Of a stretch of 64,000 nt of DNA, positions 7,976 to 43,972 are shown in pieces. A program made the position numbers and the translations under genes. The stretch comes from Phlegmacium glaucopus (Eukaryota > Basidiomycota > Agaricomycetes > Agaricales > Cortinariaceae): contig MU130549.1 in assembly GCA_015039465.1 (NCBI GenBank), positions 288,590-352,589 of the forward strand. Reading direction: 5' to 3'. Within the stretch, counting starts at the first letter, position 1, and each line of letters starts with the position of its first letter. The notes beneath the pieces are model-generated. The model was not told the DNA's origin and ran no database searches. It was given only the letters and a program-made list of their open reading frames with translations.

Positions 7976-10900
7976 ATGATTGTACTGCTAGTGACCGTTC
8001 TCTTCTGTTTCTCTCTAGCTCTAGCTCAACAACAACTAGCTCTTGTACACACTGCCTCGTCAACACCTGATATCTCCACAATAAATGACTATAACCTCCT
8101 CGACATCATCCTCGTAGCTTCAGTAGACGGTAAATTCCATGCCCTCAACAGGACGTCTGGTGCTACTCTCTGGTCAATGGCCTCTTTCGCCACTACTACA
8201 AGTGTTTCCGCCCCTTCCTCACTCGCACCGCTCGTCCGCACCCAACATGTAGACTATAACCCAGAGTCGGACTACGAAGATGATACACCACAAGAAACCT
8301 ACATCATTGAACCTCAATCAGGGGATATATATGTCATGACAACTCCTTCAAGTCCTTTACAACGATTCCCATTCTCCATGGCAGAATTAGTCGACATATC
8401 CCCCTTGACAAATGAACATGAACATCAGACGAGGTACTTTGTGGGAAGGAAAGAAACCTCTCTGATATTAATGGAATTGGAGACTGGGAAAATAAAAGCT
8501 ACACTCAATTCGGAATGTCCTTTTATCCCAGACGACACCGAGGAGTCCCAGGATGTGGACCTTGACGAACTGGAGGGAAGTAAACCACCTATATCAGCTC
8601 CTACAGAAATCTATATAGGACGTACAGGTATTTCCATCTCTCTTTCCTCACACCTTACTCTTTTTTATCTTAGTATTATTCCCAAGACTACCATATATCA
8701 ATACGCAAGAAACCTACCCCGAGTGTACCGAATCCTCCCATACACAATCTCACCTTCTCAACATATGGCCCTAACAACAGGGACAATCACCTACAAACAC
8801 TTTATCGCAAGACTAACGACAATTCCTATGTACAGAGTCTACCCAACGGAGAACTCATCGCATTTCGGGGTAGGACCCCAGCTGCGGACCAAGGAAAAAT
8901 CAAAGAAAAAGACGGGCCAGACTCTCTCCTCTGGGGACAGCACTTCAACGCACCAATGTAAAATATTACACTTTTTTTCTCCTCTTCTCTCCAACTTTTA
9001 ACGTTCTGTTATTTTCAGTGTAGCCATCTTTGACATCCTCCAAGCCCCACCTACAATCAACACTCCAAACCCACACCCTTTCATCCTCCTCCAACCCCGT
9101 CCCCGCCTCCCCGACCTCTTCCCTTCCCGATCTCTCTCCCGCCACCACCTACCCAATCTAGAAGCTGCCTATGTAGGAGTCGTAGAAGAAACAGGGAGTT
9201 TATTCGCTATGAGTCCTGAAAGCTTTCCATTGGTTGTGTTTGGTGGGAATGAATATAAAGACAAAACGACAAAGACAAGGGATAAGAAGTCCTTACCGGC
9301 TGGTGAAGGCAAGGAGGACGAATCTCCCGAAGATGTCATTAATCCCCATGAATCGACATGCATGCTAAACCCCTACGATATTCGTTGTATCGTAGGAGTT
9401 AGGCGAGTTGAAAATGGGGGTGGGCCAGAAGAGAGGTTGAAGAGTTTGTTAGATGGACCACCTCTTCCACGAGGACCTCTGAATGGTTCCGCAGCACCGA
9501 TCTCCGCTGTACCTGTCGGTCGTACACCAGGAGACGATAATGACGATAAGCGGTGGCACAACGAGAACACCAGCAACAGAGTACAAGATATCATAGCCAT
9601 CTCTGACGGCCGTGCAAATATCCTACCTCAACTAAACAAATTGGAAACTCTTCTCTCAACTATCCTGTTTGCTGTTTTCTCGGCGTGGTTTTTATGGAAA
9701 CGGGTTGGGATGAAAGTGAATTTGGCTGGAGAGAAAGAAAGGAAAAGAACAACTGTAGAGGAGGAAGAGGAGCAAGATCGTCATCCCATTGGACATATGG
9801 AACGTGATCAGGAGAACACGTCGATAAATGGCACGGCATCATCACCATCATCACCTTTTGAGAACACCTTGTTGGACAATGAAACCGGAGTGCATCCAGC
9901 GATGTCAACTCCACCACCCGTACTTATGAATGGACATGCTGACCCCATAAATGATCTTACGAATACCCCAACAACAATACCACCAACGCCGAGTCCTAAT
10001 CTCAAACGTGAATTCTCCATCTCTCTCCCGTCCAACCTAGATCCTCTACCAATCTCACAAACACCCATACCTCTTCTTCCTCAAACACCTCTACCTTCCA
10101 CGCCCACCACCGCTACTCCAGGGGTAATAGATGACAACGAAGACAGTGAGGCAGAAGTTGAACCTGAAAACGGGGCAGGTGCAATTACTACGCCTGGTAA
10201 ACGGAAAGCAAGGAGGGGGAAGAGGGGGAAGAAGAAGAGGCCTGGCGTTCTAGGTGGGGAAGAGGTTGGTAGTGGCGGGAGTGGTGGCGATAAAGCAGAG
10301 AAAGATAGAGATGCAGATGGAGGAGAGAAGGCTTCGTCGTTGATATTGACAACTTCGTCGCCGAAACCTCTTGCAACGCCTATACCTTCACTGACAGTAT
10401 CAGATACGATTCTAGGTACGTTTACCTCTTCCTTTCCTCAACTTTTTCAAACAAAAAAAAACTCATTAAATTTGCAGGCTACGGTTCACACGGCACAGTC
10501 GTGTACCAAGGTTCATTCCAAGGCCGAGCCGTAGCCGTCAAACGTCTCCTCCAAGATTTCGTAACCCTAGCCACTCGCGAAGTATCCATCCTTCAACAAT
10601 CTGATGATCATCCTAATGTGATCAGGTATTACTATCAAGAATCGCATCTCAACTTTTTTTATATCGCACTTGAATTGTGTCCTGCTTCGTTGGCTGATAT
10701 TGTCGAGAACCCGTACGGTCATGGCAATGGGATTGGAAGTTTGGGTGGGAATAGGAGAGAAGAGGAGTGGAGAGAGATTGTAAAGGGGTTTGATGCGAAG
10801 AGGGCGATGAGGCAGGTAGCGAGTGGGTTGAGGCATTTACATGGCCTTGGGTTGATTCATCGAGATATCAAACCCCAAAATATTCTGATTTCTTCTGCTT

Positions 10901-11919
10901 CCTCTTTAACCGGGGGACGAGATGGATCAGGGTACAGGATGCTCATATCCGATTTTGGTCTATGTAAGAAACTAGACGTGGACCAAACTAGTTTCTTACC
11001 TACCGCGAATGGTGCAATGGCAGCTGGGACAGTAGGTTGGCGAGCTCCCGAGATTTTACGTGGGGAAGTCAAGCTTGATGAACTTTCGAATGGTGACGAT
11101 TCCATATCTTCTCGAGGGAGTGTAGCTACCGTCAACGGCACTTCCTCCACACCCACTGGCACAACAACCACAAAAACTCGGCTAACAAAAAGTGTCGACA
11201 TCTTCGCCTTAGGTTGCCTCTTCTACTACACCCTCACAAATGGTGGACACCCATACGGCGACCGTTTCGAACGCGAAGGCAACATCTTCAAAGACAACAA
11301 ACAACTCTCTCTCCTCCCCCACTTTTGTTCAACAGAAGAATCAACAGAAGCCCAACATCTCATAACCCAAATGCTCGATCCCCAACCATCGCAACGACCC
11401 GATACCAAAACATGTCTTCTTCATCCATTTTTCTGGGATCCAGCTAAACGGTTAGGGTTTTTACAAGATGCTTCGGATAGGTTCGAAGTTATGTGTAGAG
11501 ATCCGAAGGATGGAGCTTTGATTAAGTTGGAGAAGGATGCTGGGAATGTTGTTGGGAATGATTGGCATCAGAGGTTGGATAAGATTTTTATTGAGAATTT
11601 GGGAAAGTATAGGAAGTATGATGGGAGATCTGTACAAGATTTGATGAGGGCTTTGAGAAATAAAGTACGTCTTTTTTTTCTTCGTTTGTCCCTGGATGTT
11701 CTTATTGATCCTTTTTTTTCCGCCTCTATCTAGAAACATCATTATCAAGATCTTCCGGAAAATGTTAAACGACATCTAGGTCCAATGCCAGAAGGTTTCC
11801 TTGGGTATTTCACACGTCGATATCCGAAATTGTTCATGCATGTGCATGGAGTGGTTAAGGATACTGGGTTGCATGGCGAGTCGATGTTTAGGACGTATTT
11901 TGAACTGCCGGAATCATAA
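7976..11919 (+). CDS. IRE1: IRE1, unfolded-protein-response sensor kinase and endoribonuclease (array copy A, the parent)
   Basis: ER transmembrane sensor that detects unfolded proteins, trans-autophosphorylates and cleaves HAC1/XBP1-type mRNA. Five exons (7976-8627, 8687-8957, 9019-10415, 10478-11664, 11734-11919) encode 1230 aa. I chose the ATG at 7976 because it begins a signal peptide (MIVLLVTVLFCFSLALA). The luminal beta-propeller-type domain covers about residues 20-515 (ASVDGKFHALNRTSG, EIYIGRTDYH, FNAPIVAIFDIL, AYVGVVEETGSLFAM). The membrane span is at about 520-538. A 235-residue linker follows. Kinase from residue 774: GYGSHGTV loop, VAVK lysine, HRDIKPQN near 900, DFG near 931, RAPEIL. 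KEN RNase at the end with RNK...KHHYQDLP, carrying the Arg, Asn and His expected for catalysis. All key residues are present. It is the only copy here with a luminal sensor. Confidence 0.95.
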
Positions 11920-12560: not shown

Positions 12561-13228
12561 GCCGTAGAGCTTAATCTGAATCGTTACTTTGCAAAGCTAG
12601 ATGCTGCTGGACGACTGGGCCATGTGAGCTGTCCTTAATCTGGCAGTGCGCCTTGACGCAAACCATGCCAGGTTTAATCTCCGATCCTTTATCATCTTAT
12701 CGATATTTCTCGCCAAAACACCCGTTTACCAAAGTCACTGGTGTTACGCTTTCGTCGTGAGTAAATGATTAACATTCCTTTGTCTATCAAATATGCGGTC
12801 ACCAAGCTTTGAAGGTTATAGCGCCGTGAAGGCTGTTCTTTGATCTAACGGAATTCTTTAGGCATTGACCACCCAAGATAAAAAAACATGTTCAAAACAC
12901 GATTAAAGCCAGACTAAAGCTGAACCTTTTGGCCGATACCCTCAACCAACACTAGTTTCGGGTGCATACCCACTAGGTGCGCGTCATTGTGACGCGAGTC
13001 CCCCAGGAACACCACTCTCTGTTGTCTTGCCCTCAAGGTAAGGATCTGAATCTGCAAGATTGACTCGCAGGTTCCGATCCTTACTGAGGTTTCGAACGGC
13101 TGAGGCTGCTGCCTCATCGTCTAGACAGGGTGAAAAGATGGCTACAGATAATACTAAGAATGACATATTTTTTGGTCATGATAACAAGGAGATCATGAGT
13201 TTGAGTTGATGGCATATTGCGATGGCAG

Positions 13229-13858: not shown

Positions 13859-13978
13859 GATGGCAGGGTTCATGCAAGAAAGGATTTTCAGGATATGATT
13901 TGGTTTGTGTTGTGGTTTTCGTTTTCATGATTTGAGCGCGTGCGAGGGAATTGAACGGATTATTCAATTGATGTTATT

Positions 13979-16330: not shown

Positions 16331-16963
16331 GACATTGAAAGACCTTGCGCACCAAATAGTACTTTTGACATGTCTTCTGAGGTATTATAGACGCTATACT
16401 TATCAAATTCCTAAGTTCCAAGTCGCCACACTGGGCAGTGACGGTACAGATTCATTATCATCGCATGGTTTCAGCGTCGACGCCGTCTCTGGTGGTTACT
16501 TGAGTAACTTTAAGCAATCCAAATACGACAAGCCCGAATCGATCGCTAGTGACTTGACCCAAGGAATATTCAAATCATTTACTTGGTTATTGCAACACAT
16601 TTTTCATCAAATTTCCACGTGTTTGACAAAAAGGGGATATAGTCGGCATGCGGCTACATTGTGGCTGGGGCTGGCGTCGAATTTGCACCTTGACTCCTTG
16701 AGGCATGGTTTCTCTGACACACCATCAACATCTTTTATACATGAATCGAAGTCAAATATGCGGTCAAAAGTGATTGGGCTATCGCCAGTGACTGTTCTTA
16801 TATCTCGCGGAATTCTTCAACAACAAACACGCAAGGAAAAAAAAATGGTGTTCAAACACGACAGAACCACGAGGCCACGAGGCTAACGGGAGCCATCGCC
16901 TCATCAAGTTTATCATTACCACCTCTTGTCTCTTCATCCTTTGTGCGTCGGCAGCTAAGGGCA
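16331..16963 (+). other. Open stretch ahead of copy B, not supported as a gene
   Basis: A frame of about 180 codons is open from 16335 to 16886 but lacks an early ATG, has no recognisable domain and is out of phase with the zinc-finger exon that follows. It may be leader or promoter sequence of copy B, or a decayed exon. No clear TATA box is seen. Confidence 0.3.
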
Positions 16964-19260
16964 ATGCCAGTTTCCTCCCAATGTGATTGCAGACAGTTTG
17001 CAAACAAGGAAGCTCTTCTCCAGCACATGAAGAGCTCAAGTGCATGGTACCCCTTCTGTTCAATAGGTGATCGAAGGTTTGTTAGCGAGACCGCCTTTGA
17101 CGACGTGAGTGCCTTCTTTTTCTTAATGTTCTCTCAGCTCTAACTTCAGTGTTTTTTTCTTTGTAGGATATGGCGGCTAAGCATCCGCCTGCCTATGATT
17201 GCACGCTGTGCAATCAAAGTTACCATGCACTTTTCACATTGGAAGACCATTATCGTGGATCCCCAGCTCACCCAAACTGTGGACGATGTGGCAAGGGGTT
17301 CATAGATGCTCCTGCTTGTGAAGAGGTATTATTTACTGACTCTTGCTTCTGTTTCCAATCTAAACTCTTCTGATTATCAGCACTATCGGACGGCGCATCT
17401 CTCCCCTCATACTGACTTCCACTCCTGTTTGTATCCTGGAAGTGTAGGTCACACTGCACAAACAACGGCTGTGAACAGACCTAGCTATCCACTGGGACCT
17501 CTTACTGTATTCGAGTCAGCTAAAAGGCGGAAACTTATGGAAGCCAAAGGTGAGAGGGATTCGAGAACGCTTAAAGAGGACTACTGTCAGCAACAGAAAT
17601 TAATATCAACTCTGGTGGTGGGGATGCCGGTTGAAAGTGCATATTTGCATTCTCAATTCCAGACGCACAGCTCCACAGCCTTTCCATCCTTAGCGACCGC
17701 CTCGCCTCCCGCCTTCAGTGTATTTACTCATCCCCTGGCATCCGGCTTATCGATACCTCTGGCTACGCCTACACCTTTATTAATAACATTAGATTCAATT
17801 CTAGGTACGTTCCCGCTTCCATTCCCTTTTTTCAAAAACCCCCAAGTTCATATAACCTCCAGGGTATGGTTCCCAGGGTACAGTTGTTTTCCGAGGTTCC
17901 TTCCAAGGCCAACCCGTAGCCGTCAAACGTCTCCTCCGAGATTTCGTCACATTAGCTACTCGCGAAATATCCATCCTCCAACAATCCGATGATCATCCTA
18001 ATGTGATCAGGTATTACTACCAAGAATCACAACCGAATTTTCATTATATTGTGCTTCAGCTTTGTCCTGCTTCGTTGGCAGATATTATCGAAGTTCGGCA
18101 TGGTAGTGGAGGCTTAACTTGGAGTGATAGTAGGAGAGAGGAGTGGAGAGATATAGTGCGGGAGTTTGATCCGAAGAAGGCGATGAGGCAGGTAGCGAGT
18201 GGGTTGAGGCATTTACATTGCCTTGGATTGGTTCATCGGGATATCAAACCTCAGAATATATTGATCTCTTCTTCTGGGGGACAAGGTGGAACGGGATACA
18301 GGATGCTCATATCCGACTTTGGCCTATGCAAGAGATTAGACGTGGATCAAACCAGTTTCCTGCCCACTACAAACGGCGCGATGGCAGCTGGTACCGTCGG
18401 TTGGCGAGCTCCAGAAATATTATGTGGGGAAACTAAGTTTGATGAACTCTTCACTGGTGAATATAACGGTACCCCCTCTCCGTCCCTTGGCACAACAACA
18501 ACTCCAAGAACCCGTCTAACAAAAAGCGTCGACATATTTGCCTTAGGCTGCGTATTTTACTACATCCTAACAAACGGCAGACATCCTTACGGCGACCGTT
18601 TCGAACGCGAAGTCAACATCATCAAAGATAACAAACATTTATCCCTTCTTTTTTCTACTAAAGAAGCGACAGAAGCACACAACCTCATAACCTCCATGTT
18701 ACATCCACAACCTTCTCAACGTCCAGATATCAAAACATGTCTTCTTCATCCATTTTTCTGGGATCCCGCGAAGCGGTTAGGTTTCTTACAAGATGCTTCG
18801 GATAGGTTTGAGATTATGTGTAGAAATCCGAGGGATGCGGCCTTGATTAGCTTGGAGAAGGATGCTGGGAACATTGTTGGTCACGATTGGCATCAAAGAT
18901 TGGATAAGATTGTTATTAAGAATTTGGGAAAGTATAGGAAGTATGATGGTAAATCTGTACAAGATTTGATGAGGGCTTTGAGGAATAAAGTACGTGATTT
19001 TTTTTAGTTGTCCTCACTTCTTTTTTATTCCATCTCATAATTGACCTTGTTTTTTTGTTTTGTTTCATTTTAAGAAAAATCATTACCAAGACCTCCCAGA
19101 CAATATTAAGGTGAATCTAGGTCCAATGCCGGAAGGTTTCCTTGGGTATTTCACATATCGATATCCGAAATTGTTCATGCATGTGCATGGAGTGGTTAGG
19201 GATACTGGGTTGCATGGCGAGTCGATGTTTCGGACGTATTTTGAACTGCCGGAATCATAA
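16964..19260 (+). CDS. IRE1-derived copy B: C2H2 zinc-finger protein fused to IRE1 kinase and RNase
   Basis: Five exons (16964-17104, 17167-17325, 17381-17804, 17863-18989, 19075-19260) give 678 aa in one frame. Residues 1-115 are Cys/His-rich. One finger is CTLC-x12-H-x6-H, and the next is canonical, CGRC-x12-H-x4-H (CGRCGKGF...HYRTAH), split by an intron as in many basidiomycete finger genes. A Ser/Pro linker leads to the kinase at residue 242: GYGSQGTV, VAVK, HRDIKPQN, DFGLCKRL, RAPEIL, all intact. The KEN RNase is complete (RNK...KNHYQDLP; the first His of the parental pair is Asn, the second is kept). There is no signal peptide or membrane span, so it is probably soluble. It is closest to copy E in the kinase (HYIVLQLCPAS, SDSRREEW). 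The start is the first in-frame ATG; an extra upstream exon is possible. Confidence 0.82.
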
Positions 19261-21377: not shown

Positions 21378-21954
21378 AAAGAATCATTTGGGCAACAGGA
21401 GTAAGAAATCGGGTTAATTTTGAGTGCTAACTTTCGTTGTACAAAAGTAACGGCCCTCTAGACACTGTACACCATAGTGGATTTCTTTGGCAATTAATAC
21501 CCAAGGATAAAAACATTGCCGTTCAAAACACAATTAACGTCATGACTAAACTGAGATTGGAAACTCAATAAATCACCCTTCGTGTATCGCCGCTGTAATG
21601 GCGGATTTAATAATAATAATGCATATACCAAAGTGAATCTCAATCTCTCATCTCAAGGTAGAGAATTTCATATTATCACCCGTTTCATCCGAGTCCAAGA
21701 TGCAATCAAAATCTAATGAACATGGTCTAGAATTTATGCTCGAGATGCAATAGTATGTGCACATGTTCTGCCATATTCTATCTAACTCAATCTAACATTT
21801 ATAAAAAGCACCAAGGAACTCAAAGCATCTCACTTGATTCTCATTGAGACTTCTGTTATTTTCTGCATCTGTTTGGTGTCTAAGATATTCAGGCTACTGA
21901 AAAACCTAAGTTACGCTTTACTAGTAACTTGCATGAACACATAATAAAAGTTAC

Positions 21955-22935: not shown

Positions 22936-23801
22936 TCTAAATTTAGCAGTAATTGTGTAATATTTAAATAATTATTTACTCAGTAAACATCATGTCACAA
23001 CGCCGCTTCTTCTGAGTCCTCGACTCGTTCGCTCTCATTATCTGGCTTAGTCCTTTACTCTCGCTTGTTTTCGCTCGCTCCCGCCACTCCCTATATGCAA
23101 TGCAAACTTACTCCTCACGTCAGTTCGGATTGCTACTCGGGTCGGGAAGCGCTTCGCGCTTTCAGTGTAATACTAATAATAAATTCTTTGTAGCCCTTAG
23201 TTAGTTAGTCCAGCCCTTAACAAAACCCCAGGTGTTTTTTTCTGATCCCTTGATCCTGTGTATCGATCCATGGCCAAGGAGCTGATGGAACTGTATGGAG
23301 GTGAGGTGCAATTCGATTAGAGATTTCTTCAAAATTTTGTATACTGTGGGACATGTTGTTGGCTATACATGGTCTCCCGTAGTAGTCAGACAATGATATT
23401 TCGTGTCCTTTTTTATAGTCATGTGGACGAACTCATAATATATATTCGCTACTAGCACATGTAATAGTCCTGCCAGTGGCGTCTCATGCACCTGGGTAGG
23501 ATCCAGGTCGCTGTGACAACTGGAGAGTGTACTAGGTTCGGTTCAAGCTGGCTTCGATATTCTTCGATATATGTGAGTTATGTATGGATCATAATGGATC
23601 ATAGTTCAAGCCGCCTTCTCTGGACCGGTTGTTTGGCTGTGCAGTGCAGTATCTTCTTTTGGCATTTAGAAGCTGAAAGCTTTGCAAAGTTTAAGGATGA
23701 CCGCAGATGACCGGGACCGCGCATTCCCATGAACCTCTGAGGCTGAAAATTTCTGAAAGATCTACTATGTTATTATATACGGCTATGCAAACCTGAAAAC
23801 A
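22936..23801. other. Gap upstream of copy C; part shared with 29.78-30.56 kb
   Basis: From about 23238 the sequence parallels 29775 onward (GATCCTGTGTATCGATCCAT against CATCCTGTGTGTCAATCCAT, then GGTGCAATTCGATT) and runs into the promoter of copy C. The first 300 bp (AT-rich, then Ser/Arg-like pyrimidine tracts) hold nothing I recognise. Confidence 0.4.
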
Positions 23802-23809
23802 TATAAAAA
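23802..23809 (+). promoter_or_regulatory. TATA box of copy C
   Basis: TATAAAAA lies 55-62 bp before the copy C start codon. The same ACATATAAAAAC element stands at about 30520-30531, at the same distance before the copy D start, so the promoter was duplicated with the gene. Confidence 0.6.
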
Positions 23810-23863
23810 CCCGTAGATGATAATTGACACAGTAATCAATCCGTCTCCACTCGACTCGTTCCG

Positions 23864-26121
23864 ATGTCTGAAATCAATGGCTTATCCATCGTCACTTTCG
23901 TGTTCTTCTTTCTCTCAACTTTTTTTGTCATACGACCACTCTCCTTCCATGTTCAACCACCTATCATCCGACGGACAAAAATCACCGTGGGCTTGATGAC
24001 GGTTCTCATACTTGCAATTATTATTTCGTGGGCCTCTCAATGCATTGGCGCCACTCAAATTTGCAATGGCATAGTCGGAACAGGTCCATTTCCCCAAGTT
24101 CTGTGTCTCTTTTGGCTACTGAACAATTTTCGAACATCCAGACGGCATCAAGTCTTACAACATCCTCTTCATTTCTCTGGCATATAGGTCGATCGCTCTA
24201 GATGCCACTTGGATTCTTCAAGCTGCCGCATTCTGGGTCAGGAATCAAGGAGGGAATGATACTCGAAAGCTATCTTTCTATTTTTACACTGTCCCTACTG
24301 GCATGAGTGTGGTTGTGGGAAACAACATCCTCTTTGGGACTGTCTTCCTCGTCTGCTATACCGCTGCTATTGGTCTCGAACCTACAGCATGGTTAATATC
24401 AGAGTTTGTGGCCGCAACAGCATACACAATCCTGCCATTCATTGCATGCAATCTCGCTTGTCATGCAGCTGGCAGGAGTGGAGGTGATAAAGCGGAGAAA
24501 GATAGAGATGCAGATGGAGGAGAGAAGACTCCGTCGTTGATATTGACAACTTCCTCACCGAAACCTCCTGCAATGCATATATCTCCGCTGATAGTATCAG
24601 ATACAATTCTAGGTACGTTTACCTCTTCCTTTCCTCAATTTTTTGAAAAAAGCAAACTTATCGAATCCCCAGGCTACGGTTCACATGGCACAACGGTCTA
24701 CCAAGGCTCATTCCAAGGCCGACCCGTAGCTGTCAAACGTCTCGTTCAAGGTTTCGTAACCCTAGCCACTCACGAAGCATCCATCCTTCAACAATCTGAT
24801 AATCATCCTAATGTGATTAGGTATTATTATCAAGAATCGCATCGCAACTTTTTTTATATTGCACTTGAGTTGTGTCCTGCTTCGTTGGCTGATATTATCG
24901 AGAGTCCACATGGTCATGGCAGTGGAAGTGGAAGTTTGGGTGGGAATAGGAATAGGAGAGAAGAAGAGTGGAGAGAGATCATGAGGGGGTTTGATGCGAA
25001 GAGGGCGATGAGGCAGGTAGCGAGTGGGTTGAGGCATTTACATGGCCTTGGGTTGATTCATCGGGATATCAAACCTCAAAATATTTTGATCTCTCCTGCT
25101 TCTTCATTAACGGAGGGACGAGATGGAACAGGATACAGGATGCTCATATCTGATTTTGGTCTATGCAAGAAACTGGACGTGGACCAAACTAGTTTCTTAC
25201 CTACTGCGAATGGTGCAGTGGCAGCTGGGACAGTAGGTTGGCGAGCTCCCGAGATTTTACGTGGGGAAGTCAAGCTTGATGAACTTTCGACTGGTGATGA
25301 CTCCACGTCTTCTCGAGGGAGTGTAGCTACCGTCAAAGGCACCCCCTCCACCCCTGGCACAACAACAACCACAAAAACTCACCTAACAAAAAGCGTCGAC
25401 ATCTTCGCCTTAGGTTGCCTCTTCTACTACACCCTCACAAATGGTGGACACCCATACGGTGACCGCTTCGAACGAGAAGGCAACATCCTTAAAGATAACA
25501 AACAACTCTCTCTCCTCCCCCACTTTTGTTCAAAAGAAGAATCGGAAGCCCAAGATCTCATAACCCAGATGCTCGATCCCCAACCATCGCGACGACCCGA
25601 TACCAAAATATGTCTTCTTCATCCATTTTTCTGGGATCCCACGAAACGATTAAGTTTCTTACAAGAAACTTCGGATAGGTTTGAGGTTATGTGTAAAGAT
25701 TCGGGGGATGCAGCCTTGATTATATTGGAGAAGGATGCTGCGAGTGTTGTTGGCGACGATTGGCATGGGAGATTGGATAAGATGCTTATTGAGAATTTGG
25801 GAAAGTATAGGAAGTATGATGGTAAATCTGTACAAGCTTTGATGAGGGCGTTGAGGAATAAAGTACGTCATTTTTTTTTAGTTTGTTCTCACTTATGTTT
25901 TTCATCTTGTAATTGACCTTTTTGTTTCGTTTTAGAAAAATCATTACCAAGACCTCCCAGACAATGTTAAGGTCCATCTAGGTTCAATGCCGGAAGGTTT
26001 CCTTGGGTACTTCACATGTCGATATCCGAAACTGTTCATGCACGTGCATGGAGTGGTTAAAGACACTGGGCTGCATGACGAGTCGATGTTTAGGACATAT
26101 TTTGAACTGTCGGAATCATAA
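23864..26121 (+). CDS. IRE1-derived copy C: multi-span permease-like N-terminus fused to IRE1 kinase and RNase
   Basis: Four exons (23864-24083, 24142-24612, 24673-25862, 25936-26121) give 688 aa with no stop. Residues 1-185 are membrane-embedded, with five or six hydrophobic segments (LSIVTFVFFFLSTFFVI, VGLMTVLILAIIISWA, AYRSIALDATWILQAAAFWV, ILFGTVFLVCYTAAIGLE, TAYTILPFIACNLA). The order and wording resemble part of fungal ArsB/NhaD-type anion permeases (GTDGIK-YNILF-SLAY, then GN..ILFGT.FLVYYT). The pore motif is changed (GNNILFGT), and the stretch between SEFVAA and TAYTILPF looks deleted, so transport is unlikely. From GRSGGDKAEKDRDADGGEK the IRE1 linker begins. Kinase at 231: GYGSHGTT, VAVK, HRDIKPQN, DFG, APE all present. 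KEN RNase complete (KNHYQDLP). Role unknown; perhaps a membrane sensor with IRE1-type output. Confidence 0.83.
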
Positions 26122-27528: not shown

Positions 27529-29158
27529 ATGGTTGTATTATATATTGTTTGTCTACTATTATTTCTCTTTCTACTTTCTGCTAATGCACAAGTCCAAGTC
27601 CATGCCTGCGAAAATAACGGGTCTTATATTTGGAGGCATTGTGCATTATCTGTGGCAGTCATTACTGCCAGTGACGAAACACCCATAAGAGCCCGGCCAA
27701 CGCCCGTCAAGGTACATATCGCGATATTCTGGTCTCATTGGACAGATATGAGCCACAATGCCAAGGATGACTCCGTTGATCTTTGCGATCACGGAAAATC
27801 TATCAACACCTACTAACTTCCAGGCACAAGGAGACGGGACATACTCCTTTGCCTTTCCATTTGGGACCACTCTTGATTTCACGTCTTTGGATGCGATCTT
27901 CAGGACTGGCGCTGACGTAGATCAAAATACGGTGGCGTGGATAGGTTTTTGTTTCATTCTTTTCAAAAACTATTCTCAAACTATTCTGTTCAACGATGTA
28001 TTCCAGATCTATTTGGTGTCGACTCATCTGGAAATCTCTGGCATACGAGAAAAGCTGTTTATAATACCGGTCGCTCCACTGCAGTCAAACGTCTTTCCAA
28101 CGGAGACATATGCGTTCCCGAATGGGAAGCCCCTTCGATCATCACCTCAGCAGCACTCAAAAGCTTTCGCTTGGCAACAGAACTGACGGGCGCTGGACAC
28201 GCGTACGTAGTGACAGAAGTGGCTTCTACATCAAGTTCGATCTTGGAAGTTTATGTTCAAGACATGGAATCTACGGGCTGGACTAAAACTACTGTAGCCT
28301 CCATTGATGACGCTGCTCCTAATAGTATTCTCAAGAGAAATGTCTATTATATCGAGTTGATGGTGCGTAATGGTTATCGCTCCAGGTAAGATGATCGATT
28401 TATTTGTCCGACGTCAACTCTATGACTAACTGCAGATATATACAGGCCTGACGGCGCAAATTACTTCTTCTGAGTTTTGCCAGATTGATGCCAATGGGTT
28501 AGTTTTAAGCGACAATTCTCTATAGGCTTTTTACTTATGCATTAAAAGGGTCTCGACGAGCGTAACATCTGGCCAGTCTGTGTCATTCAGACCAACATGC
28601 GAGGACTTATATGTCTTACCATTCCAGTTAACGAATCGTTAGCCTGCCCCGGACTTTCAGTTTGGGTTCAGGGGATGGATGCAAACCAAACAATCGATAT
28701 TCAGCCAACTGGTGATATTCAGACGTTCTTTGCCTCCATTACTGTCGATGATTTGAAAAACGCGACCGATGAGAAGATCAGACCCTAATCTTTTGGATTC
28801 CAAATTGCAGGAGTTGGCGGCTGGGGAGCGGCCTTTGGGCGTTCTTCACAGACCTCTGAAGGCTCGACAACAACCTCGGATACTGCCTCCCAAGCCTATC
28901 TTCATCTCGCAGCCTCTAAAGAGGTCGCATTCGTCGCATCTCAGACGTACCAGATTCATAACATTGCTCAAACGTCTCTCTTGCATACTTCGCTCCCAGG
29001 CCTTTCCCAAGTGGTCAACCTGGGACAAAATATTGTCACATTCCAGCCGCACAGTGTAGGCCCGAGTTCTTCAGGAGTAAGAGAATCTAAAGCTGGATTT
29101 GGGGTAGCTTGCACAAAGTTTACAGCCTTGAGCAAGTCTTCGAGCAAGCAGGAATAGT
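27529..29158 (+). pseudogene. Secreted protein gene, apparently frameshifted, function unknown
   Basis: Exons 27529-27711, 27824-27944 and 28007-28385 splice cleanly. They give a signal peptide (MVVLYIVCLLLFLFLLSANA), then AQGDGTYSFAFPFGTTLDF and a segment with LFGVDSSGNLWHTRKAVYN. The GNLWH wording recalls blades of fungal lectin-like propellers, but the match is weak. After 28385 the phase no longer fits the next open segment (GLTAQITSSEFCQ). A further frame change is needed near 28637 to connect the segment containing NESLACPGLSVWV with the last exon (VGGWGAAFGRSSQTSEGS...). I read this as a decayed gene, though a missed intron could rescue part of it. Its 3' end is copied at 21.96-22.93 kb. 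Confidence 0.5.
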
Positions 29159-29364
29159 GCGGAAGATGCATCCGTGAAGTTCCTGGGGTCAGGGTAACTT
29201 TACCTTCCTAGACGCCAGTATGAGTGCCGTAGGTAAACATCCGATATTCATTAGAATAACTTATAATTATACACATGTGATTGTATAAAGCTTCGAGCGC
29301 CTCATCCCATGCGTGGACACTCTGGCGGCTGGCCTAGCAAAGAGAAACATTTTTTTGAGTAATG

Positions 29365-29868
29365 TCAGAAATAATAGGAGCTAGGGAGATGCTTGCCTGC
29401 AGAGCGAATACGCTGGTGTAAATATTGGGCCGTAGTTATCGGAATATCCTTCGTAGGGTGGTACGATATTATAAGACCAAAATATTTATCGGCATCTCTA
29501 AAATATCCATTGTCGTCCACATCAACATGGTGAATAATGCATGGGTCGTCGCGTCGGTAATGCTTGATGGCTATGCTGATCTTGCTTTTCTTGACTTGAG
29601 CAGGGGTCCAGTTGGGAAATAGTGATTGTGGGTAACCTTTCCAACAGTCATTACAGGCTTGATGGTCACATAGAGAAGGGACAGGCAGTTCCGAGGACTC
29701 GAGTTGCACACGGTTAACTTCTTCAACGCAAATTTAGGATAAGGAAAGAATTAAACAGGTAAAATTTTGGACACTTACCATCCTGTGTGTCAATCCATGG
29801 CCAACTTGGAGCTGACGGAGCTACATGTCGGTGCGAAGGAGGTGCGATCTGGTGCGATTCGATTACAA
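29365..29868 (-). pseudogene. Minus-strand remnant of an unrecognised gene, also seen in pieces at 23.25 and 36.8-37.65 kb
   Basis: On the minus strand an exon ending near 29782 (APSWPWIDTQD) can splice over a GTAAGT...GAAG intron to 29365-29723, giving EVNRVQLESSELPVPSLCDH, then CNDCWKGYPQSLFPNW and a C-terminus ending SAGKHLPSSYYF. No start ATG is found upstream in frame. Matching pieces occur near 23250-23290 (PWIDTQD preserved) and 36800-37650, without an open frame. The Cys/His cluster (CDHQACNDCW) is suggestive but does not identify a family. Confidence 0.42.
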
Positions 29869-29965
29869 ATTTTCATATGCTGTTGGGTGAGTGGCTATAC
29901 AGGGCCCGATACTACGAATGAAAAGGTCTTCCTCCATAAGAAGCTAGTGAGTGGCTATACAGGCC

Positions 29966-30300
29966 AGGACCCCCCGAAAGCCCACTGGGAGGCAGTCCCA
30001 AGTCCGCATACATAAGGTCACTTTTTGGGCCAGATGCAGGTTCAAAAGTCCACATATAGACCCACCCATCACCAAAGGTAGGGTTGATAGTCCGCATACA
30101 GGATAGGTCCTGGAAGGTCGCCGACTAATGTCATTTTTAAGGCTACTTATGTAGGCACAGAAGTCCACATACAAATATGGCACCTGACGGAGGCCTACGA
30201 ACCGGCCTTGCAGAGCCGAAAAAACGTAGAAAATCGTCCGCATACCGACTTTTAGCGACTTTTTGGCGAAAACCTACCTCACAGGGTGCTTTCGGGGGTC
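29966..30300. mobile_element. Relic of the AGGACCCCCGAAAGCCC TIR element
   Basis: Left end AGGACCCCCCGAAAGCCC and right end GGTGCTTTCGGGGGTC match the intact element at 38680-39087 in sequence and order (CAAGTCCGCATAC, TTTTTGGGCCAGATG, CCCACCCATCACC). It is shortened, has mutated ends, and lacks a clear target duplication. A partial tandem repeat of GTGAGTGGCTATACAGG precedes it (29888 and 29948). Confidence 0.7.
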
Positions 30301-30580
30301 ACAGGGTCATAAGAAGCTGGCACAGGGTATTATAGGGTATTATTAGAAGAGAAGAATAGCTACTACTTAGCACATGTATTGGTTAGTCTCCTAAAACAGA
30401 CCTAATGATAATGTGATGACAAATGTATGGTCCTGGCGCGCCTAGCGTCTATCATACGGTCTAACTGGCGTCTAATGCCCCTTCTACTATGTTATTGGAT
30501 ACGGCTACTACACCCGAAACATATAAAAACCTTGTAGTATAATTGATACAGTAGTTCCCCGCTCGAGGTGTTCTCCGTTC

Positions 30581-32604
30581 ATGTCTGAAATCAATGACTT
30601 ATCCATCGTTACTTTGGCATTCTTCTTTCTCTCAACAATTTTTGTATAACTGTCGAATGATAGGTAGTCGAACATGGCATGTTCGACTACTCATCATTCG
30701 ATAGACAAAAATCACAGTGGGCTTGATGACAGTTCCCATACTTGCAACTATTATTTTATGGGCCTCTCAATGCATTGGCGCCACTAAAATTTGCAATGAT
30801 ATAGTCGGAACAGGTCCGTTTCCCCAAGTTCTATGTCTCTTTTGGATAAAGGCTAAACAATTTTCGAACATCCAGATGGTGTCGCGCCTTACAACATCCT
30901 CATCCTCTTTATTCCTCTGGTGTATATGTCGGTCACTCTAGATGTCATTGGGATTCTTCAAGCTGCCGCATTCTGGGTCAGGAATCAAGGAGGGAATAAT
31001 ACCTGGAAGCTATTTTTTTATTTTTACGCTCTTACTGGCACCAATATGGTCGGAAAAGACCCCGATATCCTCTTTAGGACCGCCTTCCTTGTCTACTATA
31101 CCGCTGCTGCCGGTCTCGAACTGGTTAATATCAGAGTTTGCGGCCGCAACAGCGTACACAATCCTGCCATTCATTGCATGCAATCTCCCTGGTTATGCAG
31201 CTGGCAGGAGTAGGAGTGATAAAGCAGAGAAAGATAGAGATGCAGATGGAGGAGAGAAAACTCCGTCGTTGATATTGACAACTTCCTCACCAAAACCTCC
31301 TGCAATGCCTATACCTCCGCTGATAGTATCAGATATGGTTCTAGGTACGTTTACTTCTTCCTTTCCTCAAATTTTTTCAAAAAAAATCTCATCACATTTC
31401 CAGGCTACGGTTCACGCAGCACAGTCGTCTACCAAGGTTCATTCCAAGGCCGAGCCGTAGCCGTCAAACGTCTCCTCCAAGATTTCGTATCCCTAGCCAC
31501 TAACGAAGTATCCATCCTTCAACAATCCGATGATCATCCTAAAGCGATTAGGTATCATTATCAAGAATCACATCCCAACTTTTTTTACATTGCACTTGAA
31601 TTGTGTCCGGATTCGTTGGCCGATATTGTCGAAAATCCACATGGGGGTGGAATTTTAGGTGGGAATAGGAGAAAAGAAGGATGGAGAGAGATCGTGAGGG
31701 GGTTTGATGGGAAGAGGGCAATGAGGCAGTTCGCGAATGAGTTGAGGCATCTACATGGCCTTGGGTTGATTCATCGGGATATCAAACCTCAGATCTTTCG
31801 ACCGGTGATGACTTATCTTCTCGAGGGAGTGTTGCTACCGTCAACGGCACCCCTCCTGGCACAACAACAACTACAAAAACTCGGCTAACAAAAAGCGTCG
31901 ACATATTTGCCTTAGGTTGCCTCTTCTATTACGCCCTCACAAATGGTGGACACCCATACGGCGACCGTTTCGAACGTGAAGGCAACATCTTCAAAGACAA
32001 CAAACAACAACTCTCTCTCCTCCCCAACTTTTGTTCAACAGAAGAATCGGAAGCCCAAGATCTCATAACCCAGATGTTCCATCCCCAACCATCGCGACGA
32101 CCCGATACCAAGACATGTCTTCTTCATCCATTTTTCTGGGATCCCACGAAACGGTTAGGTTTCTTACAAGAAACTTCGGATAGGTCTGAGGTTATAAATT
32201 TGGGGGATGCAGCTCTCGATTATATTGGAGAAGGACGCTGAGAGTGTTGTTGGCCACGATTGGCATTAGAGATTGGATAAGATTGTTATCGAGAATTTGG
32301 GAAAGTAGGAAGTATGATGGTAAATCTGTACAAGCCTTGATGAGGAATAAAGTACGTGATTTTTTTAGTCTGTCCTCACTTTTGTTTCCATCTTGTACTT
32401 GACCTTTTTGCTTCATTTTAGAAACGTCATTACCAAGTCCTCCTGGACAATGTTCAGGTGAATCTAGGTCCAATGCCGGAAGGTTTCCTTGGGTATTTCA
32501 CATGTCGATATCCGAAACTGTTCATGCATGTGCATGGAGTGGTTAAAGATACCGGGCCGCATGGCGAGTCGATGTTTAGAACGTATTTTGAACTGTCGGA
32601 ATGA
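30581..32604 (+). pseudogene. IRE1-derived copy D: decayed permease-like/kinase-RNase fusion
   Basis: Sister of copy C: same start (MSEINDLSIVT), same permease-like segment (ILQAAAFWVRNQGGN), same junction (DKAEKDRDADGGEK). Several lesions make it non-functional. A TAA at 30647-30649 is created by a local palindrome. The frame shifts near 31125. About 200 bp are missing at about 31791, removing everything from just after HRDIKPQ to beyond the APE motif, including the DFG loop. A TAG at 32267-32269 interrupts the RNase domain. The KEN end and 3' flank remain recognisable. It may still be transcribed from a TATA box at about 30522. Confidence 0.85.
30651..30706. repeat. 56-bp quasi-palindrome inside copy D
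   Basis: GAATGATAGGTAGTCGAACA on the left is mirrored by TGTTCGACTACTCATCATTC on the right, around the centre ATGGCAT. In copy C the matching place has only the right-hand half. The left half therefore looks like an inverted local copy that replaced the original bases. Confidence 0.75.
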
Positions 32605-34070: not shown

Positions 34071-36051
34071 ATGACGGCTTCTATACTTACTGTTATCTTT
34101 CAAATTCTATGGGCGGCTCAATGCATTGGTGGCAACCAAATTCGCAATGGAATAGTTCAAACAGGTCCGTTTCCTCAAGTTATGTCTCTTTTAAACTGAC
34201 CAACTTCCAGATGATGTCAAGCCCTACAACGTCCTCATTCTTTGCATCTTTATGGCGTTCATGGCCATCAGCCTACATGTCATGGGAACTCTCGGAGCCG
34301 TTGCGTTCAGTATCAACAATCAAGAAAGGACTACCACAGCTGCAGCCACCTCAGGACTAATAGATGACAGTGACGTAGAAACAGAAACTGAGAATAGAGC
34401 AGGTGCCGCCATCACGCCTAGTAAAGGGAAAGAGACGAGAGGGAACATAGAGATAACAAAGGCGCGGGTCCTAGCTGGGGAGCAGGCTATCGGGAGTAGT
34501 GCCGAGACAGATAAAATAAAGGATCCGGAAGGAGAGAAAACCGTGTCAATATCAACGACTTCCCCATCGATACCTCTGGCTACGCCTGCACCTTCATTAA
34601 TAAACTTGGTTTCTATTCTAGGTATGTTTTCCCTTACATTCTCTCTTCTAAAAAGTCTCATTTTCATACAATTTCCAGGATATGGGTCCCAGGGTACAGT
34701 CGTTTTCCAAGGTTCATTCCAAGGCCGACCCGTAGCCGTCAAACGTCTCCTCCGAGATTTCGTCACTCTAGCTACTCGCGAAGTATCCATCCTTCAACAG
34801 TCCGATGATCATCCTAACGTGATCAGGTATTACTATCAAGAATCACAACTAGATTTTCATTATATTGTGCTTCAGCTGTGTCCGGCTTCGTTGGTTGATA
34901 TCATCGAAATTCGGCGTGGCAGTGAAGGCTTGACTGAGAGTGATAGTAGGAGAGAGGAGTGGAAAGATATAGCGCGGGAGTTTGATCCAAAGAGAGCGAT
35001 GAGGCAGATGACAAGTGGAGTGAGGCATTTACATGGCCTTGGATTAGTTCATCGGGATATCAAACCTCAGAATGTATTGGTCTCTTCTTCTGGGGGACGA
35101 GGTGGAACGGGATACAGGATGCTCATATCCGACTTTGGCCTATGCAAGAAACTAGACATGGATCAAACCAGTTTCCTGCCTACTACGAACGGCGCGATGG
35201 CAGCTGGTACTGTCGGTTGGCGAGCTCCAGAAATATTACTTGGAGAGGCTAAGTTAGATGAACTTTCAACTGGTGAACATAACAGCACCTCCTCCCCCTC
35301 CCCCGGCACAACAGCAACAACTCCAACAACCCGTCTCACCAAAAGCGTTGACATCTTTGCCTTAGGCTGCGTCTTCTACTACATCCTAACAAATGGCGGA
35401 CATCCTTACGGCGACCGTTTTGAACGCGAAGTCAACATTATCAACGACAACAAAGATCTATCCCTTCTTCCTATCAAAGAAGCAACAGAAGCATACGACC
35501 TCATAACCTCCATGTTACATCCACAACCTCCCCAACGTCCAGATATCAAAATATGTCTTCTCCACCCATTTTTCTGGGATCCCGCGAAACGGTTAGGTTT
35601 CTTACAAGATGCTTCGGATAGGTTTGAGGTTATGTGTAGAGATCCGAAGGATGCGGCTTTGATTAGATTAGAAAGGGACGCCGGGAATGTTGTTGGCGAC
35701 GATTGGCATCAGAGGTTGGATACCGTTCTCGTTGAGAATTTAGGAAAATATAGGAAGTATGATGGTAAATCTGTACACGATTTATTGAGGGCTTTGAGAA
35801 ACAAAGTACGTTTTTTTGTCTTCGGGTCTTTTTTTCTATATCATAGTAATTGCTTTCATTTTTAGAAAAATCATTACCAAGACCTCCCAGACAATGTTAA
35901 GGTGAATCTAGGTCCAATGCCGGAAGGTTTCCTTGGGTACTTCACATGTCGATATCCGAAACTGTTCATGCATGTGCATGGAGTTGTGAAAGATACTGGG
36001 TTGCATTGCGAGTCGATGTTCAGGACGTATTTTGAACTGCCAAAACCATAA
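34071..36051 (+). CDS. IRE1-derived copy E: short membrane N-terminus fused to IRE1 kinase and RNase
   Basis: Four exons (34071-34164, 34211-34621, 34679-35805, 35866-36051) give 605 aa in one frame. The first exon of the C/F type is present upstream but frame-shifted, so I use the first in-frame ATG. The protein would then start with two hydrophobic segments (ILTVIFQILWAAQCIG and LILCIFMAFMAISLHVMGTL). The permease-like part ends at AVAFSINNQE and passes directly into the IRE1 linker (LIDDSDVETETENRAG, matching VIDDNEDSEAEVEPENGAG in the parent), a longer linker than in copy C. Kinase motifs are intact: GYGSQGTV, VAVK, HRDIKPQN, DFG, APE. The KEN RNase is complete (KNHYQDLP). Whether the shortened N-terminus is made as drawn is uncertain. 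Confidence 0.75.
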
Positions 36052-38640: not shown

Positions 38641-38679
38641 CGGGTTCAGTTACAAGATTTATAGTTGGTGGGACCAAAC

Positions 38680-41906: not shown

Positions 41907-43972
41907 ATGTCTGAAATCAACAACTTATCCATCGCTTTGGTACTCCTCGCCGTCTCAACAATTTTCGTCATACACCCGCTCTCCTTCTATATTCGACTAC
42001 CTATTATCGGACGGACAAGAATGACAATTGGCTCGACGACGGCTTTCACACTTGCTGTTATCCTTCTCTGGCTGTGGGCGCAGGAGGTTCAATGCAATGA
42101 CGCCAGTCAAGATCACGACTCGGATGGAATAGCTGGAACACTGGGAACAGGTCTGTTTCCTGAAGTCTGTGTCTGACTAATTATAACTTTCGATTGCCCA
42201 GATGACATCGAGTCTTACAACATCCTCATCCTCTGTCTCGCTCTGGCGTTCATAGCCATCATTCTCCATGTCACTGGAATTATTGAAACCGCCGCATTCT
42301 GGGTCAACGACCAAGGAGATCAAATATTGTATTGCTACTTTTACGAAGTTCTTCTCGCCACCATCACCACACCTCTTCTTCCTGAAACTCCTCCGCCCTC
42401 CACGCCTGCCACAACCACATTCACCCCAGGAGTAACAAACGACGACGACGTGGAAAATGAGTCCAAATACGGCGTAGACGCAGGATGGGATGAAACCGCG
42501 TTGATGCCGTCAACATCCTCGCCTTCGTCTTCATTGACTCTATCAGATACGGTTCTAGGTATCTTGTCCCTCCTCATTCTCAAAACAAAGAAGTTCTCAT
42601 CGTTTCTCCAGGCTTCGGTTCATACGGCACAGTTCTCTACGAAGGTTCATTCCAAGGCCGACCCGTAGCTATCAAACGTCTCCTCCGAGATTTCGTCACC
42701 ATAGCCACTCGCGAGGTATCCATTCTCCAACAATCCGATGATCATCCTAATGTGATCAGGTATTATTATCACGAATCGCGAGACAATTTTATATATATTG
42801 CGCTTGAGTTGTGTCCTGCTTCGTTGGCCGATATTATCGAGAATCCGAGTGCAGGTTTGTGTGGTAGGAGAGAGGAGATTGTGCGGGGGTTTGATCCGAA
42901 GAGGGCGATGAAGCAGATAGCAAGTGGGTTGATGCATTTACATGGACTTGGGTTGATTCATTGAGATATCAAACCCCAGAATATTTTGATCTCTTCTTCT
43001 GGATACAAGATGCTCATATCCGACTTTGGCCTATGCAAGAAACTAAACGCGGGCCAGACGAGTTTCGTACCTACCGCCAATGGTGGCAAGGCACCTGGGA
43101 CCGTAGGCTGGCGAGCTCCGGAAATTCTACGCGGGGATGTTAAATTGGATGAGCTTCCGACTGGTAATGATTCCACGTCCTCTCGGGGCAGCGTAGCTAC
43201 CGTCAACGGCGGCGCCTACTCTTCTGGCACAATATCCCCAAAAACCCGTCTAACAAAAAGCATTGACATCTTTGCTTTAGGCTGCCTCTTCTACTACATC
43301 CTCACGAAAGGTGGTCACCCATACGGGTATCATTTCGAACGTGAGGTCAATATCGTAAGAGACGACAAACGTCTCTTCCTCTATCGTTCTGCCGAAGATT
43401 CAACAGAAGCCATCGACCTCATAACTGCCATGCTCCATCCACAACCTTCGCAACGTCCAAATACCAGAAAATGTCTCCTTCATCCATTTTTCTGGGATCC
43501 ATTGAAACGCTTGGGGTTCCTGCAAGATGTGTCGGATCGCTTTGGCTCTTTGTGTAGAGATCCGATTCATCCGACTTTGACTAGATTGGAGAGAGGTGCG
43601 CGGAGTATTGTTGGAATGGATTGGCATCAGAGATTGGATAAGACATTCGTTGAGACTTTGAGAGAGCATAGGAAGTATGATGGAACATCTGTGCGGGATT
43701 TGTTGAGGGCTTTGAGAAATAAGGTATTCAAATCATTCTTGTTCCCACCACATTTTGTTGATTCTATTTTATTTTTGCATCATTAGAAACACCACTATCA
43801 AGACCTCCCAGCCGACGTCCAACGGAACCTAGGTTCAATACCCGACGGTTTTCTTAGATATTTCACACGTCGATTTCCGACATTGTTCATGCATGTATAT
43901 GGGGTGGTTAACGACACTAGGTTGGATCGCGAATCGATGTTCAAGACGTACTTTGAACTGCCAGAATCATAA
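41907..43972 (+). pseudogene. IRE1-derived copy F: permease-like/kinase-RNase fusion with a stop in the HRD motif
   Basis: Exons 41907-42150, 42202-42558, 42612-43723 and 43787-43972 total 633 codons in one frame. The only interruption is TGA at 42962-42964. The stop replaces the Arg of HRD (HLHGLGLIH, stop, DIKPQNIL); the parent reads CGA there, so a single C-to-T change explains it. The permease-like segment (MSEINNLSIALVLLAVSTIF, then PIIGRTRMTIG, then GIIETAAFWVNDQG) passes into an IRE1 linker that starts earlier than in copy C (LLPETPPPSTPATTT). Kinase loop GFGSYGTV, AIK, DFG and APE are intact. The RNase keeps the parental KHHYQDLP. The truncated product would end before the catalytic loop. 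It looks a recently disabled gene unless the stop is a sequencing error or is read through. Confidence 0.85.

Follow-up and report, generated by a model that had tools for sequence, protein, structure and literature searches.

The IRE1 locus of Phlegmacium glaucopus

IRE1 is a textbook conserved stress sensor. In the window, the whole 64-kb stretch of DNA analysed here from Phlegmacium (Cortinarius) glaucopus, a complete IRE1 gene (A) is followed by five copies (B to F) of its kinase-RNase (KR) half. The six KR units are arranged head to tail on the plus strand with a pairwise DNA identity of 75-90.5% over the whole unit, introns counted. This composition had already been proposed in a sequence-only reading and is confirmed by the arrangement of the units and by PF06479, whose exon-level matches across the 60.5 Mb assembly (best candidates scored), 11 in number, are all located inside A to F.

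7976..11919, plus strand: A, complete IRE1, 1230 amino acids; five exons (7976-8627, 8687-8957, 9019-10415, 10478-11664, 11734-11919) with GT-AG introns
16964..19260, plus strand: B, zinc-finger-type front end, kinase and KEN, 678 amino acids, open; exons 16964-17104, 17167-17325, 17381-17804, 17863-18989, 19075-19260
23864..26121, plus strand: C, 5' part of a CitMHS-type permease, short A-type linker, kinase and KEN, 688 amino acids, open; exons 23864-24083, 24142-24612, 24673-25862, 25936-26121
30581..32604, plus strand: D, layout as in C, broken by a 202-base deletion over the DFG region and several frame shifts
34071..36051, plus strand: E, shortened permease part, longer linker, kinase and KEN, 605 amino acids, open; exons 34071-34164, 34211-34621, 34679-35805, 35866-36051
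41907..43972, plus strand: F, permease part, linker without basic box, kinase and KEN; exons 41907-42150, 42202-42558, 42612-43723, 43787-43972

A is the ordinary IRE1 of P. glaucopus, with an N-terminal hydrophobic, signal-peptide-like stretch, luminal domain, linker, kinase and KEN RNase in this order and one further hydrophobic peak, the transmembrane segment (TM), at residues 516-534. A, B, C, E and F share the introns that precede the kinase and the last KEN exon. The ATP Lys, HRD and DFG are all present in A, B, C and E, and the equivalents of the RNase residues Y1043, R1056, N1057 and H1061 (taken from PMC3149027 and mapped on yeast Ire1 chains) in all five copies examined (A, B, C, E and F). 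B retains every catalytic residue, and PF06479 matches B with an E-value of 3e-43 and C with 2e-41. The spliced models thus agree with the earlier view of three open copies with catalytic residues, B, C and E, next to two broken ones. D and F are dead copies, D with its deletion, frame shifts and a disrupted permease exon 1, F, otherwise open, with one in-frame TGA at 42962-42964 in the Arg position of HRD, a stretch that the deposited model P0131 omits.

A whole-genome search with residues 1-384 of A as query matched A only, in three exon pieces, and tblastn over the 64-kb window found no luminal remnant outside A, so that the absence of a luminal domain beyond A, as first suggested, holds. 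B, C, E and F are without the ER luminal stress-sensing domain and, with their position in the tree described below, the array copies are sensor-less, IRE1-derived KR units. Collapse of repeats during assembly is an unlikely origin of the array because the copies diverge this much and possess different front ends. A neighbouring region with P450 exons is likewise triplicated. A lectin identity guessed by eye for the open reading frames upstream of D and F was dropped, as four of them gave no Pfam match.

Front ends and donor-type genes

That the copies carry different front ends was correct, while the detail required revision: the membrane segment in C, D, E and F corresponds to the 5' portion of a CitMHS-family permease, a complete-looking relative of which is found on contig C128, and B begins with a copy of a zinc-finger gene, of the kind present on contig C171, that has lost an internal part. 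The donor-type genes sit on contigs other than that of the array, and the homologous stretches extend beyond the coding parts:

16606..17749, plus strand: B, stretch homologous to the zinc-finger donor locus (L028 2111-2994 and 4270-4608, 76-78% DNA identity)
23763..24469, plus strand: C, stretch homologous to the C128 permease donor locus (L027 3759-4427 and 4511-4563, 87% DNA identity)
28948..31201, plus strand: D, upstream flank and permease part in the order of the C128 donor locus (L027 1428-4563, with gaps)

The donor-like stretch takes in about 360 bases of upstream DNA in B, where 1.3 kb of the donor is missing inside, and about 100 bases before the ATG in C. After the permease part, C and D continue into a short stretch of A-type linker; E and F contain less of the permease and more of the linker. 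Judged by hydropathy only, four peaks precede the kinase in C, two in E, three in F and none in B. The initial description of these segments as exchanged sensors is not supported, as the permease parts are truncated and, with dN/dS values of 0.36-0.82, weakly constrained and drifting; they may for this reason be just captured promoters, starts or anchors.

The fusions might have been drawn wrongly, the permease and zinc-finger remnants being separate dead genes and the KR parts beginning at internal ATGs or going untranslated. The deposited model of C (P0001) does start inside exon 2 and lacks exon 1, the donor of C exon 1 is GTCCAT, and E has lost the permease start region. However, the frames continue across an intron that is also present in the C128 permease, at the same place and with the donor GTCCGT, the deposited models of E (P0003, letter-for-letter identical with ours) and F include the fusion via the same fusion intron, and the models of B and C are stop-free over 678 and 688 codons. 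We consider this explanation unlikely.

The basic linker box

In yeast Ire1, the fungal [+]-box of the linker docks the HAC1 mRNA (PMC4279078).

10199..10249, plus strand: basic linker box of A, KRKARRGKRGKKKRPGV, matching the fungal [+]-box; 11 of 17 residues K/R

All 16 other ordinary IRE1 rows tested, 11 from Agaricales with a species name and five further rows, resemble A in having 11-12 K/R out of 17 in the box. The corresponding counts are 7 in B (in non-homologous sequence), 4 in C, 5 in E and 1 in F; A thus has the box, E a decayed version of it, and B, C and F have none.

Relatives in other records

B, E and F group with at least 49 protein clusters from ENA/JGI records in a sister clade to the Cortinarius-type IRE1 clade, the latter consisting of 13 rows with A and C, the paralog clade of 49 rows with B, E and F. 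Both sets were chosen by eye among the matches listed (best 120 of 2498, 725 and 858 at E 0.001), mostly ordinary IRE1 of fungi or less close rows being left aside, so that 49 is no census; the taxon of the relatives is deduced from tree position rather than from the record label. Support on the IRE1 side amounts to 97/91 in a 40-row and 94/81 in a 38-row tree. Origin of the array in one local burst is rejected: a single clade of A, B, C, E and F has an AU p of 0.01, and B, E and F fall with the 49 outside clusters, while B and E in one clade with A and C is not rejected (AU p 0.128). C and D are, by sequence, younger, A-like copies.

The relatives are protein calls that mostly begin inside the kinase. 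A front end is visible only in P0270, whose KEN part is unseen; this front end has relatives in the P. glaucopus genome on contig C195, and its identity as TPR-like repeats was a judgement by eye to which no such Pfam match corresponds.

Within the paralog clade of 49 rows, 46 of 47 retain the Y1043 equivalent and 46 of 48 each those of R1056 and N1057, a level of about 96-98%, with ORF calling favouring intact frames; most of the few misses occur because P0264 and P0275 fall short of the KEN core. H1061 is retained in 8 of the 9 rows that cover it, the ninth being intron read-through, as are the letters of P0252 at H1060/H1061; in the 13 IRE1 rows, most of which end before the last exon, this residue was uncounted, its columns being misaligned or filled by intron read-through in 3 rows and gapped in 10. 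The median retention in the paralogs across the 146 columns that are invariant in IRE1 is 0.94, so that the RNase residues (0.96-0.98) stand barely above the middle, and KEN columns overall are kept less than kinase columns (0.75 versus 0.83). The Asp of HRD is present in 41 of 41 rows, the Lys of HRDxK in 28 of 41 and the Asp of DFG in 39 of 46, some paralogs having lost the HRD Lys or the DFG Asp.

Such losses would suit copies that are modulators of A rather than enzymes, forming hetero-oligomers through the KR interface that tune or block the unfolded protein response. The copies are sequence relatives of solved Ire1 KR structures and, with the basic box missing, would leave HAC1 undocked. 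The RNase residues, though, need not persist in a modulator, yet they are kept in nearly every paralog row, and we consider this role improbable, slightly more so than wrongly drawn fusions.

Selection on the copies

The branch omega is 0.26 for B (p 0.0004 against 1) and 0.35 for E (p 0.004 against 1), while C is inseparable from 1 (p 0.10). In the kinase exon, the array copies are relaxed compared with A and the inner branches (omega 0.40 versus 0.19, p 0.0015), and open and broken copies do not differ significantly (p 0.28). Since D, a clear pseudogene, still shows an omega of 0.43 that is separable from 1 (p 0.011), values below 1 prove little, and dN/dS is insufficient as proof of present function. 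The selection on the P. glaucopus copies contemplated at the outset is therefore unproven for the present day, as open and broken copies cannot be told apart by this measure.

These data bear on the strongest competing explanation, namely that the array is a by-product of unstable tandem duplication, functionless recombination debris kept A-like by gene conversion, with D and F as the usual end. The similar omega of open and broken copies and the value for D speak for it, as do the drifting permease parts, the triplicated P450-exon region nearby and the mosaic structure of the copies, B resembling E throughout the kinase but A and C in its 3' flank and in two of the three windows that cover the unit's end. 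On the other hand, B and E, taken together, depart widely from an omega of 1 (2 delta lnL 28.75), and 49 diverged relatives have open frames with about 96-98% of the RNase residues kept. Debris is a possibility to be taken seriously, if the less probable one. In fact, it is the wider family and not the P. glaucopus copies that, on sequence grounds, argues for function.

Comparison with known systems

The copies share with IRE1 (yeast Ire1p and its fungal orthologs) the kinase and KEN RNase in one unit with identical RNase residues, whereas B to F are without the luminal domain and the TM of IRE1 itself, and the [+]-box is missing in B, C and F and decayed in E. RNase L equally combines a related kinase-KEN unit with a non-IRE1 front end. 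RNase L is a pseudokinase with its RNase residues kept, which some of the paralogs, by their residues, appear to resemble, whereas B, C and E retain the kinase residues and hence do not look like pseudokinases. The P. glaucopus copies, unlike RNase L, are clearly derived from fungal IRE1, and no ankyrin family, a feature of RNase L, was detected in B or C at E 0.01. The Ire1 of S. pombe is a full-length IRE1 with its sensor, which is absent in B to F. Its basic linker motif is divergent, HAC1 is missing from this fungus, and the enzyme is RIDD-specialised, as portrayed in PMC4279078 and PMC8104961, a precedent for loss of the box along with the HAC1 work. KEN fusions are listed in PMC3710099.

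The sequence-only reading named no described fungal family that reuses the IRE1 output module in this way; outside fungi, a precedent for sensor-less IRE1 paralogs exists in plants. Arabidopsis IRE1C, a Brassicaceae paralog without the sensor, is attributed to gene duplication and has diverged further than IRE1A/B, and an IRE1B lacking the luminal domain is reported to be activatable and capable of complementation (PMC6788458). The relevant sections of that paper concern one or two genes and mention no foreign front end; here, by contrast, the copies form an array and belong to a family of many members whose 5' ends are captured. The Ire1-like kinases of Dictyostelium were dropped as a parallel, since a single IRE1 ortholog, IreA, is named in the pertinent part of PMC6025073; that of PMC4891664 contains no information on copy number.

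Proposed origin and role

We favour, with a probability of about 0.5, a lineage-specific family of sensor-less IRE1 output modules that has arisen and acts as follows. Early in the Cortinarius-type lineage, the KR half of IRE1 would have been duplicated without the luminal sensor, and such duplicates would have founded the paralog family to which B, E, F and relatives from other species belong. IRE1 output halves would then repeatedly have been joined, by local tandem duplication and recombination, to promoters and 5' ends of other genes, probably at least twice with a CitMHS-type permease as partner and once with a zinc-finger gene, with C and D, whose KR half is A-like, representing a later round. 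The output module, nucleotide pocket and KEN RNase, is retained, and the luminal sensor and the HAC1-docking basic box are lost. The products, where expressed, would most likely be kinase-RNases, membrane-anchored (C, E) or soluble (B), for which their own dimerisation, level or anchor, and not unfolded protein, would be the most likely switch, and which would most likely cut RNA in a RIDD-like or RNase L-like manner without HAC1 splicing; judged from its sequences, the family probably consists of RNases uncoupled from HAC1.

More tentatively, IRE1 might have given rise in Cortinarius-type fungi to kinase-RNases that work independently of HAC1 and form a large and old family. This family would be the fungal equivalent of RNase L: its RNA-cutting output would stay constant while new front ends (a permease stub, a zinc finger, the repeat-like domain of P0270) are attached again and again, and part of its members would have turned into pseudokinase-RNases. 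We regard this broader picture as less probable than the favoured reading.

The mosaic array illustrates how gene fusions arise through local recombination, and a known stress enzyme seems to be reused outside its usual role. If true, the KR unit of fungi can live outside the unfolded protein response too, its output half multiplied, sensor and mRNA-docking box dropped and the RNase residues kept. Furthermore, the family would be a source of natural variants in which the nucleotide pocket, the kinase activity and the RNase specificity (HAC1 splicing versus RIDD) are separated from one another.

A single IRE1 and five sensor-less copies

In the assembly of Phlegmacium glaucopus, an ectomycorrhizal mushroom of the Cortinarius type (60.5 Mb, 259 contigs), six kinase-RNase units, all in the same orientation, were found within contig C193:288590-352589. 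A Pfam profile search of the whole genome located 11 exon matches of the RNase domain KEN (PF06479), 11/11 inside these six units, while the luminal domain of unit A occurs once in a whole-genome search and no luminal remnant was found before B to F within the window. The sequence-only reading of one complete IRE1 with five copies of its kinase-RNase half only is confirmed. The units are:

A: normal IRE1, 1230 amino acids, five exons
B: 678 amino acids; the front end is a C2H2-like stretch, matching zf-C2H2_4 only below the Pfam cut-off
C: 688 amino acids; the front end is the 5' part of a permease
D: 202 bases missing at and around DFG; frame shifts
E: 605 amino acids; a shorter permease part in front; identical to deposited protein P0003
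F: a permease part in front; one TGA in HRD

The lesions in D and F bear out the earlier view that two copies are dead. Of the deposited models, that of F (P0131) evades the in-frame TGA by leaving out the HRD stretch, and that of C (P0001) starts within exon 2 and leaves out a low-complexity stretch. Among the 120 matches listed for the E query, near the top of which a B protein would be expected at 86% identity, none corresponds to B; the length window of the protein searches excluded A itself.

Two further features were observed in the window:

13979-15987: inverted repeat between A and B, arms of 593 bases, 99% complementary, 823 bases apart; in appearance a foldback or TIR transposon of recent origin
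46296-58635: region with cytochrome P450 exons in three tandem copies adjoining the array, >90% alike in parts and 63-73% in others, PF00067 being found in the first copy

Given the triplicated P450 region, the array locus seems prone to tandem duplication.

Origin of the front ends

The front end of C matches in two pieces a permease gene on contig C128 (67 and 71% protein identity; CitMHS, PF03600, E 2.6e-18 in Pfam) and another on C105 (41 and 60%). Equally, a zinc-finger gene on C171 is 60-89% identical to the front end of B over three pieces, with B lacking about 1.3 kb from the inside of this donor. As the donor homology begins before the ATG, by about 360 bases in B and about 100 in C and D, donor promoters were probably captured along with the front ends. 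At the DNA level, the permease parts of C and D (87 and 84%) are closer to the C128 gene than those of E and F (69 and 74%), which points to separate captures or to conversion by the donor; C/D look like a younger and E/F like an older, separate permease capture, with conversion of the C/D pair by the permease donor as the alternative that the same identities allow. Upstream of C, D and F, window positions 21839-22065, 28948-29947 and 36811-37075 match the upstream flank of the C128 permease (donor-type locus L027, 1317-3482), so that array units carry intergenic DNA of the donor locus; four open reading frames in the D and F flanks had no Pfam match.

Two probable generations of copies

C and D are A-like along the unit (0.81-0.96 in 150-column windows; 0.67-0.70 in the last-intron window), and B resembles E across the kinase (0.82-0.95), as far as about A 11435. 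The end of the B unit is mixed, nearer A at 11534 and from 11816 (0.90) and nearer E at 11717 (0.93), and its 3' flank is A/C-like (0.84-0.91), not E-like (0.42-0.62). In trees, 13 proteins group with A and C and, by this placement, represent the ordinary IRE1 of the Cortinarius-type lineage, whereas 49 paralogs, chosen by eye and not a census, group with B, E and F. In the 40-row tree the IRE1 side of this split received support of 97/91 and the paralog side 91/75; SH-aLRT was 91 and 84 in the 72-row tree, and the 38-row tree gave 94/81. Topology testing on the 38-row tree rejected A, B, C, E and F as a single clade (p 0.01); a clade of B, E and F of their own was borderline (p 0.047) and placement of B and E with A and C was not rejected (p 0.128).

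F groups with P0156 and P0270 (SH-aLRT 95, 72-row tree; F with P0156 81/55, 40-row tree). P0270, from another species, carries a third kind of front end fused to the kinase, with three neighbouring relatives of this front end at C195:541089-555026 (46-49% identity); no KEN part of P0270 is seen and its end looks broken. P0165 and P0228 both list a contig of 59,469 bases, which makes tandem copies probable in a further species.

Constraint on the copies

Pairwise dN/dS of the kinase-RNase unit was 0.16-0.38 by three methods in 10/10 pairs of A, B, C, E and F. Over 339 kinase-exon codons, branch values were 0.15 for A, 0.26 for B, 0.35 for E, 0.43 for D, 0.48 for F and 0.51 for C, those of A, B, E, F and D differing from 1 (p 8e-6 to 0.011). 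In this exon the copies are relaxed versus the rest (0.40 vs 0.19, p 0.0015), with no significant difference between B+E and C+D+F (p 0.12). The earlier suggestion was of either selection or recent birth, and these values do not establish present selection on the copies: all ten pairs are below 1, but open and broken copies do not differ significantly in the kinase exon (p 0.28) and the C branch is not separable from 1 (p 0.10).

The permease fronts gave 0.51-0.80 (donor-C), 0.62-0.82 (donor-F), 0.38-0.69 (pairs among C, E and F) and 0.36 (donor-E; 67 codons, one method), so that constraint on them is mostly weaker than on the kinase-RNase unit; the zinc-finger part of B against its donor gave 0.31-0.55.

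Catalytic residues and the basic linker box

RNase residues, as defined for yeast Ire1 in PMC3149027, were positioned via yeast chains; one of these, 3sdj, departs from 3fbv at the position of H1061, and we infer from that source that it is the H1061N protein. The RNase residues are kept in 5/5 copies looked at (A, B, C, E, F). Models B, C and E are open with all catalytic residues kept, as the sequence-only reading claimed. In the paralogs, the RNase Tyr is kept in 46/47, Arg and Asn each in 46/48 and His in 8/9 of the rows covering it. Among kinase residues, HRD Asp is kept in 41/41, HRD Arg in 34/41, DFG Asp in 39/46 and the HRDxK Lys in 28/41 (9 Arg, 4 Asn instead), so some paralogs resemble pseudokinases whose RNase signature is intact. 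One subclade (P0252, P0256, P0257, P0262, P0267) has HQD for HRD and Asn or Tyr for the DFG Asp and keeps the RNase Tyr, Arg and Asn; its members are candidate pseudokinase-RNases. Across 146 IRE1-invariant columns, median retention in the paralogs is 0.94, RNase Arg and Asn ranking above 87/146 and Tyr above 111/146. Mean retention is 0.83 in kinase and 0.75 in KEN columns, KEN overall thus being no better conserved.

HAC1 mRNA docks on a basic box in the yeast Ire1 linker, the [+]-box, conserved in the fungi compared except Schizosaccharomyces pombe, which has no HAC1 (PMC4279078). Unit A and 16/16 other ordinary IRE1 rows (11 named Agaricales, P0002, P0005-P0007, P0020) have 11-12 K/R per 17 residues. 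At the homologous place C has 4, F 1 and E 5; the best basic stretch of B has 7, but is zinc-finger-gene sequence. P0270 has 4, the Ganoderma protein P0103 11 and the unusual or truncated models P0106, P0152, P0190 and P0216 2-5.

Among kinase-RNase proteins of other Agaricomycetes, P0152 (Sistotremastrum niveocremeum; precomputed PF28371/PF28353), P0190 (Dendrothele bispora) and P0216 (Ganoderma adspersum) have N-termini that by eye are unlike the IRE1 luminal domain and miss the basic box, model errors being possible. Mycena albidolilacea has two IRE1-like proteins (P0148, P0193), both listing a contig of 996,917 bases and seemingly with luminal remnants; in this mushroom, too, IRE1 seems to have been duplicated recently.

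Precedents and proposed function

Full-text searches, with most subscription papers outside their scope, found no paper on Cortinarius and IRE1, none on fungal IRE1 gene duplication that names the Pfam family, and none on fungal KEN-domain gene fusion. Judged by titles and abstract beginnings, the matches listed included no fungal IRE1 paralog without a luminal domain and no fungal case of lineage-specific IRE1 expansion. PMC3710099 describes fusions of KEN with other domains and its expansion in Oikopleura and in monocots. Arabidopsis IRE1C is sensor-less, as are B to F, and Arabidopsis IRE1B without its luminal domain is activatable and able to complement (PMC6788458). In S. pombe, divergence of the box accompanies the absence of HAC1 (PMC4279078).

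What the array shows is a kinase-RNase unit whose residues are intact and which, lacking sensor and docking box, follows captured 5' ends. With 4 and 2 hydrophobic peaks, C and E would be seated in a membrane, and B would be soluble. From their sequences, B, C and E may be RNases with targets other than HAC1, and such RNase action apart from HAC1 would have precedents in Arabidopsis and S. pombe.
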